Shown: piece after piece, positions 13,232 to 50,341 of the stretch
Layout of the letters: each line of letters starts with the position of its first letter
Numbering within the stretch: the first letter of the stretch is position 1
Assembly (NCBI RefSeq): GCF_002261345.1
Contig: NZ_NEVT01000006.1
Span: 620,001 to 684,000 of the forward strand
Origin: Bordetella genomosp. 2
Lineage (GTDB): Bacteria; Pseudomonadota; Gammaproteobacteria; Burkholderiales; Burkholderiaceae_B
Reading direction: 5' to 3'
DNA: 64,000 bases
Translations under genes and position numbers: made by a program
The notes under the pieces: model-generated
Database searches by the model: none
What the model saw: only the letters and a program-made list of their open reading frames with translations
Told to the model about the DNA's origin: nothing

Positions 13232-13316
13232 GCCCAGGTGGCGGAATTGGTAGACGCGCATGGTTCAGGTCCATGTGCCGCAAGGTGTGGAGGTTCGAGT
13301 CCTCTCCTGGGCACCA
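13232..13316 (+). tRNA. tRNA-Leu (anticodon CAG), copy 1
   Basis: 85-nt class II tRNA with CCA encoded. The acceptor is GCCCAGG/CCTGGGC, the anticodon stem CATGG/CCATG encloses TTCAGGT (anticodon CAG), and a long variable arm follows. It is base-for-base identical to the copy at 14101-14185. A terminator follows. Confidence 0.97.
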
Positions 13317-14100: not shown

Positions 14101-14185
14101 GCCCAGGTGGCGGAATTGGTAGACGCGCATGGTTCAGGTCCATGTGCCGCAAGGTGTGGAGGTTCGAGTCCTCTCCTGGGCACCA
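14101..14185 (+). tRNA. tRNA-Leu (anticodon CAG), copy 2
   Basis: Identical over all 85 nt to the tRNA at 13232-13316, including CCA. The flanks differ, so this is a true second gene rather than a misread repeat. Same anticodon CAG. Confidence 0.97.
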
Positions 14186-47510: not shown

Positions 47511-48584
47511 CTATTTCCCCGCGGTCGCGGCGGCGCGGCGGCGTTCCTTCACGGCTCGCGCCAGCCGCTCGAGCACCGCCACCGAGGTATCCCAGTCGAT
47601 GCAGCCGTCGGTGATGCTCTGCCCATACACCAGCGGCTCGCCCGGCACCATGTCCTGGCGCCCGCCCAGCAAATGGCTTTCGATCATCACGCCGACGATG
47701 CGGGTCTCGCCCGCTTCGAGCTGGCGCGCCACGTCCTCGGCCACCAGCGGCTGGTTCTCCGGTTTCTTGCTGCTGTTCGCATGGCTGGCGTCGATCATCA
47801 GGCGCTGCGCCAGGCCCGACTTCGCCATGTCCTGGCAGGCCGCGGCGACGCTGGCCGAGTCGTAGTTCGGGGTCTTGCCGCCCCGCAGGATGACGTGGCA
47901 GTCTTCATTGCCCGCCGTGGAGACGATGGCCGAATGCCCGCCCTTGGTGACCGACAGGAAATGATGCGGCTGCGAAGCCGCCTTGATCGCGTCGACGGCA
48001 ATCTTGACGTTGCCGTCGGTGCCGTTCTTGAAACCCACCGGGCACGACAGTCCGGAAGCCAGCTCGCGGTGAACCTGGCTTTCGGTCGTGCGTGCGCCGA
48101 TGGCTCCCCAGGACACCAGGTCGGCAATGTACTGCGGCGTGATCATGTCGAGGAATTCGCAGCCGGCCGGCAGGCCCTGGGTATTGATGTCCAGCAGCAG
48201 TTCGCGCGCCACGCGGATGCCGCGGTTGATCTCGAAGCTGCCGTCCAGGCCGGGATCGTTGATGAGGCCTTTCCAGCCCACCGTGGTGCGCGGCTTCTCG
48301 AAATACACCCGCATGACGATTTCCAGCTCGCCCTGCAGGCGGTCGCGCACCGGCTTCAGGCGGCTGGCGTACTCCAGCGCCGCCTTGGTGTCGTGGATCG
48401 AGCACGGGCCGATGACGACGATGAGGCGGTCGTCCATTCCATGCAGGATGCGGTGCATCGCCTGGCGCGCGGCGAAGACCGTTTCGGAAGCCTGCTGGGT
48501 GCAGGGAAACTCGCGCATGACATGCGAGGGCGGATTCAGCTCTTTGATTTCGCGGATGCGAAGGTCATCGGTGTTGTGCGACAC
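47511..48584 (-). CDS. aroG: 3-deoxy-7-phosphoheptulonate (DAHP) synthase
   Basis: First enzyme of the shikimate pathway, condensing PEP and erythrose 4-phosphate; 357 residues, class I (AroF/G/H). Blocks seen are VIGPCSIHD, RVYFEKPRTTVGWKGLINDP, GCEFLDMITPQYIADLVSWGAIGARTTESQVHRE, PVGFKNGTDG, HANSSKKPENQ and HLLGGRQD. Which aromatic amino acid inhibits the enzyme is not readable with certainty. GTG 48584 is the start, with AGGAG 7 nt upstream. The 5' region encodes a Phe/Tyr-rich leader peptide and a terminator, so transcription is probably attenuated by charged tRNA-Phe and tRNA-Tyr levels. Confidence 0.93.
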   Translation of the reverse strand: MSHNTDDLRIREIKELNPPSHVMREFPCTQQASETVFAARQAMHRILHGMDDRLIVVIGPCSIHDTKAALEYASRLKPVRDRLQGELEIVMRVYFEKPRTTVGWKGLINDPGLDGSFEINRGIRVARELLLDINTQGLPAGCEFLDMITPQYIADLVSWGAIGARTTESQVHRELASGLSCPVGFKNGTDGNVKIAVDAIKAASQPHHFLSVTKGGHSAIVSTAGNEDCHVILRGGKTPNYDSASVAAACQDMAKSGLAQRLMIDASHANSSKKPENQPLVAEDVARQLEAGETRIVGVMIESHLLGGRQDMVPGEPLVYGQSITDGCIDWDTSVAVLERLARAVKERRRAAATAGK

Positions 48585-48621
48585 GGTGTGGCTCCTGGGT
48601 TGCCCGCCAGGCTGACGGCAC

Positions 48622-48652
48622 AAAAAAGCCGCCAGGGAGCTGGCGGCTTTTT
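48622..48652 (-). terminator. Attenuator terminator before aroG
   Basis: On the minus strand: AAAAAGCCGCCAG, CTCC loop, CTGGCGGC, then TTTTTT. Strong intrinsic terminator about 40 bp upstream of the aroG start and 20 nt beyond the leader stop. Confidence 0.88.
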
Positions 48653-48672
48653 CGAGGGATTCTTTACGGACT

Positions 48673-48756
48673 TCAGACTGCGCGCGTCCCTTCCTCCGCC
48701 AGCGGCTTCAGAAAACCATAAAAATAAAAGTAAAAAGCGGGGGACGCGAATTTCAT
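48673..48756 (-). CDS. aroG leader peptide (27 aa, Phe/Tyr-rich)
   Basis: Translates to MKFASPAFYFYFYGFLKPLA followed by EEGTRAV and a stop. Eight of 27 residues are Phe or Tyr, six of them consecutive and alternating (codons TTT TAC TTT TAT TTT TAT), in a genome that otherwise uses these T-rich codons sparingly. Position, length, stop just before a terminator and complementary arms are those of classical attenuation leaders such as pheL. Its Shine-Dalgarno is weak and I could not define its promoter. Confidence 0.8.
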   Translation of the reverse strand: MKFASPAFYFYFYGFLKPLAEEGTRAV

Positions 48757-48837
48757 GACGAAAGACTCTAGCACAAAAATTCCCGCATCGTCCAGGCAAA
48801 CCCTTGAATCTGCGCAAATAGCCCTCATCCAGCAAGC

Positions 48838-49389
48838 ATGGCCGACCCCTCATCGCTCATGCGCGGCGCGCGGCGCCTGCTGATTCTGGTCGCGCTGGGC
48901 GCCGCCGCCTGGTGGGCCTGGCCGCGCCTGCCGGAACCGTGGCGCGCCCCCTGGCATATGCTGCGGCTTTCCGTGCAGCCCGCGCCGACCGCCCTGCCCG
49001 TGCCGGTGGCCGGCGTGGGGCCGGACCAACTGGCCGACACTTGGGGCGCGGCACGCGCGCACGGCCGCCGGCATGAGGGCATAGACATCTTCGCGCCGCG
49101 CGGCACCGCGGTCCTGTCCACCACGGAGGGCGTGGTGACCAGGGTGGGAACCAACAACCTGGGCGGCCGCGTCGTATGGGTGCTGGGCCCGGGACGGCAG
49201 ATGCACTACTACGCGCACCTGGACCGCTACGCCGACGTGGCGCCCGGCAGCCATGTCATGCCGGGCACGCCGCTGGGCTATGTCGGCAATACCGGCAATG
49301 CCCGCACCACCCCGCCGCACCTGCACTATGGCATCTACCAGGCCGGCGGCGCGCTCAACCCCTACCCGCTGCTGCGCGCGGCGCGCTAG
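48838..49389 (+). CDS. M23 family metallopeptidase (LytM domain)
   Basis: 183 residues. One N-terminal membrane helix (about 13-29, [15 protein letters not shown]) anchors a periplasmic LytM domain. The zinc ligands are His79 and Asp83 (HEGIDIFA) and the HxH near the end (HLHYG, 161-163), with the active-site His at about 127 (HYYAHLDRY). All residues are present, so it should be a functional peptidoglycan endopeptidase rather than a degenerate regulator. Family features [16 protein letters not shown] and [18 protein letters not shown] are clear. The next gene converges. Confidence 0.88.
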
Positions 49390-49396
49390 GAATACC

Positions 49397-50341
49397 CTAC
49401 TGCGGCGTCAGGCCGGCGTCGCGGAATACCCTGCCCCATTTATCGATATCGGCATGGATCAGCTGGCCGAACGCCTGCGGCGTGGAGGGCATGGGAGTCA
49501 GGCCGCTGGCGGCGAATTGCCGGCGCAGGCCCGGATCGGCCAGCGCTTCGCCCAGCGCGGCGTTGATCTGTTGCACTATCGCGCCGGGCATGCCCGCCGG
49601 GCCGGCCATGCCGAACCACACATTCAGGTCGTAATCCGGCAACCCGGCCTCGGCGAGCGACGGGATATCCGGCGCCAGCGGCGAGCGCTGCCTGCTGGTC
49701 ACGCCCAGGGCCACTACCCGTCCCGCCTGGGCCTGCTGCATGCCGTTGACCATGTCGGCGATCGTGAAATCGATCGTGCCGCCGATCAGGTCGGTCATCG
49801 CCTGCGGCACGCCACGGTACGCGACCGGCACGGCGCTGAAGCCGCCCATCGAAACCACCTGCGCGCCGCACAACTGGGCGCTGCCCGAACCGTAGCCGTA
49901 CGTCAGCTTGCCCGGATTGGCCTTGCCGTATGCCAGCAGTCCCTGCAGATCGCGCACTTGCAATGCATTGCTGGCCACCAGCATGAAGGGCGCTTCGGCG
50001 ACCGCGCCGATCGGCGTGAAGTCGGTGCGCGGATCGTACGGTAGCGACTTGAAGGCGCTGACATTGCTGGCTCCCGTGCTGACGCCCACCATGAACAGCG
50101 TGTAGCCATCCGGTTCGGCGCGACTCGCCGCCACAGTGCCCACGATGCCGTTGGCCCCGGCCCGGTTCTCGATCACGATCGGCTGCCCCAGGCGCGGACC
50201 GATGCCCTCGGCGAGCGTGCGCGCGACCACATCGGTAATGCTGCCCGGCGGAAACGGCACTACCAGGCGCACGGGCTTGTCCGGATAGGCATGGGCCGCC
50301 AGCGGCAGCGCGCACAGCAGCGCGGCGAACAGGTATCGCAT
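49397..50341 (-). CDS. Bug family substrate-binding protein
   Basis: 314-residue periplasmic binding protein. The signal peptide MRYLFAALLCALPLAAHA is followed by YPDKPVRLVVPFPPGSITDVVAR, the Bug signature. IVIENRAGANGIVGTVAASRAEPDGYTL, VPVAYRGVPQAMTDLIGGTIDF and LAEAGLPDYDLNVWFGMAGPAGMP are further family blocks. ATG 50341 was preferred to upstream ATGs since it gives a proper signal peptide and has GGAG about 10 nt upstream. No transporter membrane genes adjoin it; the ligand is unknown. Confidence 0.88.
   Translation of the reverse strand: MRYLFAALLCALPLAAHAYPDKPVRLVVPFPPGSITDVVARTLAEGIGPRLGQPIVIENRAGANGIVGTVAASRAEPDGYTLFMVGVSTGASNVSAFKSLPYDPRTDFTPIGAVAEAPFMLVASNALQVRDLQGLLAYGKANPGKLTYGYGSGSAQLCGAQVVSMGGFSAVPVAYRGVPQAMTDLIGGTIDFTIADMVNGMQQAQAGRVVALGVTSRQRSPLAPDIPSLAEAGLPDYDLNVWFGMAGPAGMPGAIVQQINAALGEALADPGLRRQFAASGLTPMPSTPQAFGQLIHADIDKWGRVFRDAGLTPQ

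Follow-up and report, generated by a model that had tools for sequence, protein, structure and literature searches.

How is the first step of aromatic amino acid synthesis governed in Bordetella genomosp. 2? All aromatic amino acids are made by way of DAHP synthase, whose textbook control, that of E. coli, consists of the TyrR and TrpR repressors together with feedback inhibition. Upstream of aroG, in a 64,000-nucleotide stretch of contig NZ_NEVT01000006.1 (the whole stretch analysed, referred to here as the window), a preliminary description had pointed instead to a leader-peptide attenuator. Our analysis makes it very probable that this leader works as a trp/phe-type attenuator, in which a translating ribosome couples aroG transcription to charged tRNA-Phe and tRNA-Tyr; the support for such an attenuator comes from sequence, conservation, covariation, codon register and the competition between folds, and is computational throughout.

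The gene (47511..48584, minus strand; 357 codons plus stop) encodes a class I DAHP synthase, whose product matches the NCBIfam AroG equivalog NF006723 with 593.5 bits (cut-off 568). Its GTG start lies at 48584, downstream of an AGGAG (48592..48596, minus strand) that is likely the ribosome binding site, and the N-terminus as read from this GTG recurs among relatives. Upstream of aroG on the same strand lies the ORF MKFASPAFYFYFYGFLKPLAEEGTRAV (48673..48756), in which the 27 codons and the FYFYFY at codons 8-13 (TTT TAC TTT TAT TTT TAT) of the preliminary description are confirmed to the base; an extra Phe at codon 15 (the leader reads FYFYFYGF) extends the Phe/Tyr run to codons 8-15. From the end of this ORF to the aroG GTG there are 88 nt. 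Six leader peptides compared with the NCBIfam and Pfam profiles matched 0 families, in a search whose filters very short peptides may escape. The genome's other class I DAHP synthase (L002, 60% identity) showed no such aromatic leader in a search for ORF plus terminator upstream of it, and a class II DAHP synthase was not found in this genome. Elsewhere in the window, two tRNA-Leu genes that share the anticodon CAG lie 0.8 kb apart on the same strand (13232-13316 and 14101-14185).

We collected 151 aroG loci: the window, the genome's second DAHP synthase, 80 named loci (the best 80 of a longer list of named genomes), and, from 200 sampled genomes of the family, the 29 best loci not already included (family top) and 40 more genomes hand-chosen for genus breadth (genus picks). 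A chance test, counting at least 6 F/Y/W in 8 codons with one ORF detector for real and control DNA, was run on 149 of the 151 upstream regions (2 loci with short upstream DNA were left out). Such runs occurred in 104/149 real regions, in 2/1490 dinucleotide shuffles and in 0/149 reverse complements, so that the aromatic run stands above chance; the lone positive among 284 tiles of the window is presumably the leader itself.

When a leader was defined as a terminator together with an ORF that has four or more aromatics in 8 codons, 121 of the 151 loci carried one before aroG (window 1/1, paralog 0/1, 58 of the best 80 named loci, family top 29/29, genus picks 33/40). The leader-bearing groups are Alcaligenaceae (the label assigned by inference, from its content, to the window's family, f1, with 43 genera), Burkholderiaceae, Oxalobacteraceae, Xanthomonadales and alphaproteobacteria; the group names of the named loci follow their record titles, and Cupriavidus lacunae (L016) is among those with the leader. 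The remaining 30 loci gave no such combination in the script; at least two of these absences are detection failures (L005, where a longer frame was read, and L030, where the hairpin has no stretch of five T), and L061 offered too little upstream DNA for leader detection. No such leader was found at three enteric and three vibrio aroG loci (L067, L068, L079-L082), of which L080 has an aromatic ORF and no terminator, and none was detected in a Rhodocyclales-type block (L049, L054, L057, L060, L064, L069, L071), in three 0.8-Mb genomes (L117, L118, L150), in four other genus picks (L123, L128, L132, L149) or in L029, L043, L044, L065, L074 and L078.

Leader presence requires 7 changes on a quick AroG tree of 87 rows, against 18.3 in shuffles (0/500 as low), although support is poor for 33 of the 84 inner branches and near-copies by themselves favour label clustering; for this tree L061 and 23 near-copies among L084-L111 were left out, and L005 and L030 were scored leader-positive. 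The simplest reading of the pattern is that leader and aroG were inherited together. Two observations concern the loci without a detected leader. In L117, L118, L123, L128, L132, L149 and L150 a frame ending in GGT[A/S] lies, by eye, just upstream of aroG (7/7), and in four of these seven relatives GMPT stands ahead of that ending, a different neighbourhood. L074, a named Anaerolineae MAG, has an AroG near the proteobacterial type, an upstream aromatic ORF with FSFFSWYGYF and a hairpin without a clear T-run; this leader-like locus may reflect gene transfer or a binning error.

Both Phe and Tyr codons are present in 120/121 leaders. All 63 Alcaligenaceae leaders hold the two, and seven of them also hold Trp (56 do not); Trp codons occur in 11/13 Burkholderiaceae, 2/12 Oxalobacteraceae, 9/9 Xanthomonadales and 16/16 alphaproteobacterial leaders, 8 further named leaders being left outside these groups. 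The trpL leader of Sinorhizobium meliloti is not known to read any amino acid other than Trp. In 78 non-redundant leaders Phe is encoded by TTT 268 times vs 67 for TTC (1 vs 6 in the aroG of the window), and Tyr by TAC 80 times vs 97 for TAT. A class II DAHP synthase was present in 18/66 genomes examined and in 0/48 of the window's family or order; the carriers (family codes f18, f27, f52, f56, f59 and f63) appear to be Xanthomonadales-like or alphaproteobacterial, judged by leader type, and their leaders all hold Trp. The idea that Trp codons appear in leaders where a second DAHP synthase is missing was rejected on this account, and also on the grounds that class II is absent from all 48 family or order genomes, yet Burkholderiaceae-type leaders mostly hold Trp too. 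Many family genomes have a single AroG-like enzyme, as do G002, G013 and G024, where class II is absent too, and the leaders of these three (L113, L122 and L130) hold Phe and Tyr codons and no Trp.

In the window, an extended -10 element, TGCTAGAGT (48765..48773, minus strand), lies 8 nt before the leader ATG, and a putative -35, TGGACG (48789..48794, minus strand; 4/6), lies 18 nt before the -10. The -35 was read from the sequence and is absent from the output of a consensus scan of 48000-49500, which reported neither promoter nor terminator; the scan wants 9/12 promoter bases, and the T-run here belongs to the stem. In many relatives GTGACG or TTGGCA occupies, by eye, the -35 position, and a -10-like hexamer recurs. 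With a simple ad hoc scoring, the best such hexamer ends 5-9 nt before the ATG in 62/63 Alcaligenaceae, 7/8 Xanthomonadales and 5/14 alphaproteobacterial leaders, and lies further upstream in Burkholderiaceae (33-47 nt, 13/13) and Oxalobacteraceae (25-40 nt, 11/12). Transcription is predicted to start at or within about 3 nt of the leader ATG. Since the -10 stands 5-9 nt from the ATG, and no Shine-Dalgarno was seen by eye before the leader ATG of the window, Alcaligenaceae and Xanthomonadales probably make a leader mRNA that is leaderless. Attenuators of Corynebacterium glutamicum, AroR among them, have leaderless transcripts.

The RNA downstream of the start contains the elements of a switch. 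The four complementary arms named in the preliminary description, CGCGTCCC (48748-48741), GGGACGCG (48690-48683), GCTGGCGG (48703-48696) and CCGCCAGC (48646-48639), are found at these positions. All features are on the minus strand: arm 1, the protector CGCGTCCCCCGC (48737..48748), pairs with arm 2 in the fold of 48756-48668; arm 2, GCTGGCGG AGGAA GGGACGCG (48683..48703), is common to protector and antiterminator; arm 3 (48639..48659), which joins UCCC (48659-48656) to CCGCCAGC, provides the 3' side of the antiterminator and the 5' side of the terminator; and arms 3:4 form an intrinsic terminator hairpin with a U-run (48622..48653). This terminator, GAAAAAGCCGCCAG-CTCC-CTGGCGGCTTTTTT, has 14 pairs and begins 19 nt after the leader stop; with a fold of -23.6 kcal/mol (z -5.7, 0/200 shuffles as stable), it is as strong as had been described. 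Arms 1:2, 2:3 and 3:4 make a classical attenuator set, with energies that are alike (-23.6 kcal/mol for 48756-48668, -22.1 for 48713-48639 and -23.6 for 48668-48621).

Antiterminator and terminator exclude each other in folds and comparison, both needing arm 3. The 1:2 and 2:3 pairings are also mutually exclusive, because they are wider than first thought: arm 1 extends past the arm originally named, its CCGC pairing with GCGG within arm 2, and the GGGA of arm 2 has as alternative partners either arm 1 or the UCCC at 48659-48656, just before the terminator. Thus, of the complete set of alternative hairpins claimed initially, the presence of all arms stands, and the extent of arms 1 and 2, which are longer than stated when pieces are folded, had to be revised. 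In fold stability the 1:2 and 2:3 segments do not stand out from shuffles with equal composition (z -0.05 and -0.12), and the support for them comes from comparison; the whole-leader fold z-score (z -2.0, 7/200 shuffles as stable) is weak as proof and was dropped.

A second arm pair, GCCGTCAG / TGGCGGGC (48602-48619, minus strand), lies between the terminator and the aroG ribosome binding site. It repeats the sequence of arms 3 and 4, and in the full-length fold arm 2 pairs with this repeat; in near relatives (L090-L108) it is kept by eye, with widely different loop lengths. This pair might lend stability to the read-through mRNA or bring in a further control at the level of translation; a role as a general part of the switch was rejected, the pair being by eye confined to near relatives.

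The comparative support was assessed in two alignments, A1 (Alcaligenaceae, 37 sequences) and A2 (the other groups, 44 sequences), against shuffles that retain relatedness. In the A1 protector, 25 cells have both sides changed, against 12.6 ± 2.9 in shuffles (0/500 as many); 71.7% of cells are paired (28.3% are not pairs), and 6/8 pairs have both sides changed, a number matched by 134/500 shuffles. The A1 antiterminator is paired in 97.0% of cells in its main helix and in 69.9% in its inner GGGA:UCCC stem, with both-side changes in 5/12 pairs of the whole structure vs 2.3 in shuffles (0/500), and the A1 terminator is 94.4% paired. In A2, the antiterminator core is 91.9% paired; its both-side-changed pairs (2/7 vs 1.3) are reached by 198/500 shuffles and its both-side-changed cells (5 vs 1.7) by 6/500. 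The A2 terminator is 92.7% paired, with 23 such cells vs 7.1 (0/500). In these alignments the predicted antiterminator helix covaries, and the candidate protector helix does so in A1 by cells, not by number of pairs. Conserved aromatic codons and covarying arms in relatives were the check that the preliminary description had set for itself, and on the whole it was passed, given the leaders at 121/151 loci and the covariation of the two helices.

Individual loci were also compared with dinucleotide shuffles. With arm 3 taken to the hairpin midpoint, leader:arm 3 duplexes reached p<=0.05 in 61 of the 78 non-redundant loci and p<=0.01 in 37; a narrower arm 3 gave antiterminator duplexes at these levels in 38/78 and 22/78, and protector duplexes attained them in 26/78 and 10/78. 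By eye, the direct partner of arm 1 (UCCGCCA) in Burkholderiaceae is the GGCGG core of arm 2, and in Alcaligenaceae the partner of arm 1 is mainly GGGACGCG, beyond the core. As a separate observation on 36 non-redundant Alcaligenaceae loci, a GGTGG arm 2 core, which gives the antiterminator a G-U pair, is accompanied by an interrupted terminator stem in 13/13, a GGCGG core with a continuous stem (loop <=7) in 15/17, and the core-less loci are interrupted in 6/6; it looks like a co-adjustment of antiterminator and terminator strength, confounded by descent.

The aromatic codons also keep a register with arm 2. In 60 of 69 loci (9/78 loci without a GG[CT]GG core were left out), the gap between the end of the last aromatic codon of the densest 8-codon segment and this core measures 11 nt (in 42 loci) or 17 nt (in 18). 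With this register and an assumed footprint, the stall codons appear to be placed so that a stalled ribosome would free arm 2 and a moving one would mask it. In our masking model, which takes the RNA to be free from 15 nt beyond the first P-site base, the 2:3 pairing of the window has a probability of 1.00 as long as the A-site lies within codons 4-14; the value falls to 0.87 at F15, 0.46 at L16 and 0.00 from K17. The end of the aromatic run is, under the footprint assumed, the point where the modelled switch turns. At the model's equilibrium without a ribosome, 2:3 has 0.99 and 1:2 has 0.00; because 2:3 beats 1:2 in this way, the protector could act only via the order of folding, being made first.

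From this evidence we infer the start site, the translation of the leader, the stalling, the read-through and the relevant starvation. RNA polymerase would start at or next to the leader ATG, with a ribosome trailing it. When Phe- or Tyr-tRNA is scarce, the ribosome would stall within codons 8-15, covering or crowding arm 1 and leaving arm 2 free to pair with arm 3; no terminator would then form, and aroG would be transcribed. When both tRNAs are charged, the ribosome would advance over arm 2, and arms 3:4 would terminate transcription near 48622.

Other explanations of the same features have to be weighed against this attenuator. The nearest retains the mechanism and limits the input to Phe, as in pheA and pheST, with the Tyr codons present merely for AU-richness. 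Phe does exceed Tyr in Alcaligenaceae leaders (mean 5.5 vs 2.3), and enhanced transcription under Phe limitation is reported for the AroR leader of C. glutamicum (PMC11802643); against this, Tyr is present in 63/63 Alcaligenaceae, 9/9 Xanthomonadales and 16/16 alphaproteobacterial leaders, it exceeds Phe in the last two groups (3.1 vs 2.6 and 2.4 vs 1.7, respectively), and AU-richness alone fails to account for TAC being nearly as frequent as TAT, which leaves a Phe-only sensor unlikely, if still the most credible of these alternatives. It is less probable again, and in our view improbable, that the leader RNA or its peptide acts mainly in trans, like peTrpL/rnTrpL of S. meliloti. A short leaderless terminated RNA would indeed be released, as for rnTrpL (PMC10117765), and Alcaligenaceae keep the C-terminal part of the peptide; however, the conserved C-terminal codons encode arm 2, so that RNA pairing explains them, the peptide differs in other groups, and a role in trans would leave attenuation in cis in place.

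Two further readings dispense with tRNA sensing and are highly improbable. The hairpin could be a constitutive element, ending an upstream transcript or fixing the level of read-through, with a peptide devoid of any sensing role: the terminator is strong, and other terminator-like sites in the genome match our covariance model (R1, below) weakly, but across three classes the terminator is accompanied by the aromatic run, its register and the complementary arm 2, and the nearest upstream ORF (48838, plus strand) is divergent, leaving no evident upstream transcript. The least probable of all is a metabolite riboswitch or a protein-bound attenuator in which the ORF is incidental, as might be suggested by a leader that is structured and conserved; no Rfam family was found at gathering score, and few features are as well conserved as the ORF, with its codon content and the register that it keeps to arm 2.

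How widely the leader occurs was examined with R1, built from 66 aroG leaders. In the window's genome R1 finds a single site (E 1.8e-26), the next match (E 0.015) being a terminator only. Over 397 genomes of the phylum, the window's own included, 76 match at E<=0.001 in a search with stricter filters, an upper figure in that some matches are pheA, pheS or terminator-only. Of 50 R1-matching loci that were read (30 supplied and 20 hand-chosen from the rest), 40 have AroG directly downstream (the leader ORF of L191 being doubtful), in 8 a Phe-rich leader precedes pheA or pheS (E 5.5e-8 to 4.6e-4), and 2 have neither; PheA was confirmed for L196, L200, L202 and L206 (N-terminal pieces) and PheS for L199 and L201, with L204 and L207 taken as PheS by likeness. 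That R1 also retrieves leaders of pheA and pheS serves well as a positive control. Rfam 15 gave no family for the leader at gathering score; matches below it include Thr_leader (23.2 bits) and Phe_leader RF01859 (21.5 bits; gathering 55). PheL (pheA) and PheM (pheST) leaders (RF01859) are, like the aroG leader, Phe-rich with a terminator; the aroG leaders differ in preceding another gene and in adding Tyr and, in other lineages, Trp codons.

The kind of system is already known, since leader-peptide attenuators before DAHP synthase genes have precedents. The closest is the AroR leader peptide of C. glutamicum, with Phe-Tyr-Phe before the DAHP synthase gene aroF (Neshat 2014, as reviewed in PMC11802643), whose transcription is enhanced under Phe limitation according to that review. 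It shares with the Bordetella leader a Phe/Tyr leader ahead of a DAHP synthase gene; unlike it, AroR is actinobacterial and, as quoted there (PMC11802643), has a shorter aromatic run, the likeness being one of description. The earlier judgement that a Phe+Tyr leader on a DAHP synthase gene is unusual therefore holds against the E. coli textbook picture and fails in view of how widespread the leader is and of the C. glutamicum precedent (PMC11802643). In Acholeplasma, the uORFC-13-1 motif is a predicted leader ORF with Phe codon(s) and a terminator before aroF; it belongs to another phylum, comprises 24 sequences with at least 1 Phe codon each, and a Tyr run is not described in the accessible text (PMC8632094), according to which attenuation of E. 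coli aroF was also once hypothesised.

Predicted attenuators before tyrA operons that start with a DAHP synthase gene (aroAI types) are listed in table 7 of PMC1173090 (Merino's site), where two Vibrio species appear with aroAIalpha-tyrA and Thermus with aroAIbeta-tyrA, for example. These come from a screen of tyrA operons only, with no leader peptide or stall codon described in the part available, and Bordetella parapertussis appears there with the gyrA-serC-pheA-tyrA supraoperon, not with aroG (PMC1173090). The trpL/rnTrpL system of S. meliloti resembles what is predicted for the aroG leader, being a proteobacterial attenuator of an aromatic pathway whose leader ORF is reported to be leaderless, and differs in its gene, trpE, and in the known trans activity of peTrpL/rnTrpL (PMC10117765). 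The accessible part of PMC5343134 reports attenuation of trp and pheA in gammaproteobacteria, with aroG only as a TrpR or TyrR target. Our literature search returned no account of this aroG leader in these Proteobacteria, although an earlier listing in Vitreschak 2004, Lopatovskaya 2010, Panina 2001 or Merino's site is possible. Judged from sequence comparison, the aroG leader apparently represents a large family of ribosome-mediated attenuators, unlisted in Rfam.

A broader proposal is quite possible, and we advance it tentatively: that one old attenuator accompanied aroG across the beta-, gamma- and alphaproteobacteria and would work as an OR gate with many inputs, in which a shortage of any charged tRNA (Phe, Tyr and, in Xanthomonadales, Burkholderiaceae and alphaproteobacteria, also Trp) would open the shikimate pathway. 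Lineages would swap codons in a fixed register to arm 2 and co-adjust the strengths of antiterminator and terminator, and in the leaderless cases the released RNA or peptide may also act in trans. If the attenuator is real, several large proteobacterial groups would govern the DAHP synthase gate by a mixed Phe/Tyr(/Trp) leader instead of by the E. coli scheme. The leader would then be a candidate new family for RNA catalogues, bringing with it many small genes unrecognised by the NCBIfam and Pfam models tried, and a possible control point for the metabolic engineering of aromatics; as a natural mixed-codon leader, it may also serve as a model for how one attenuator reads several tRNAs.
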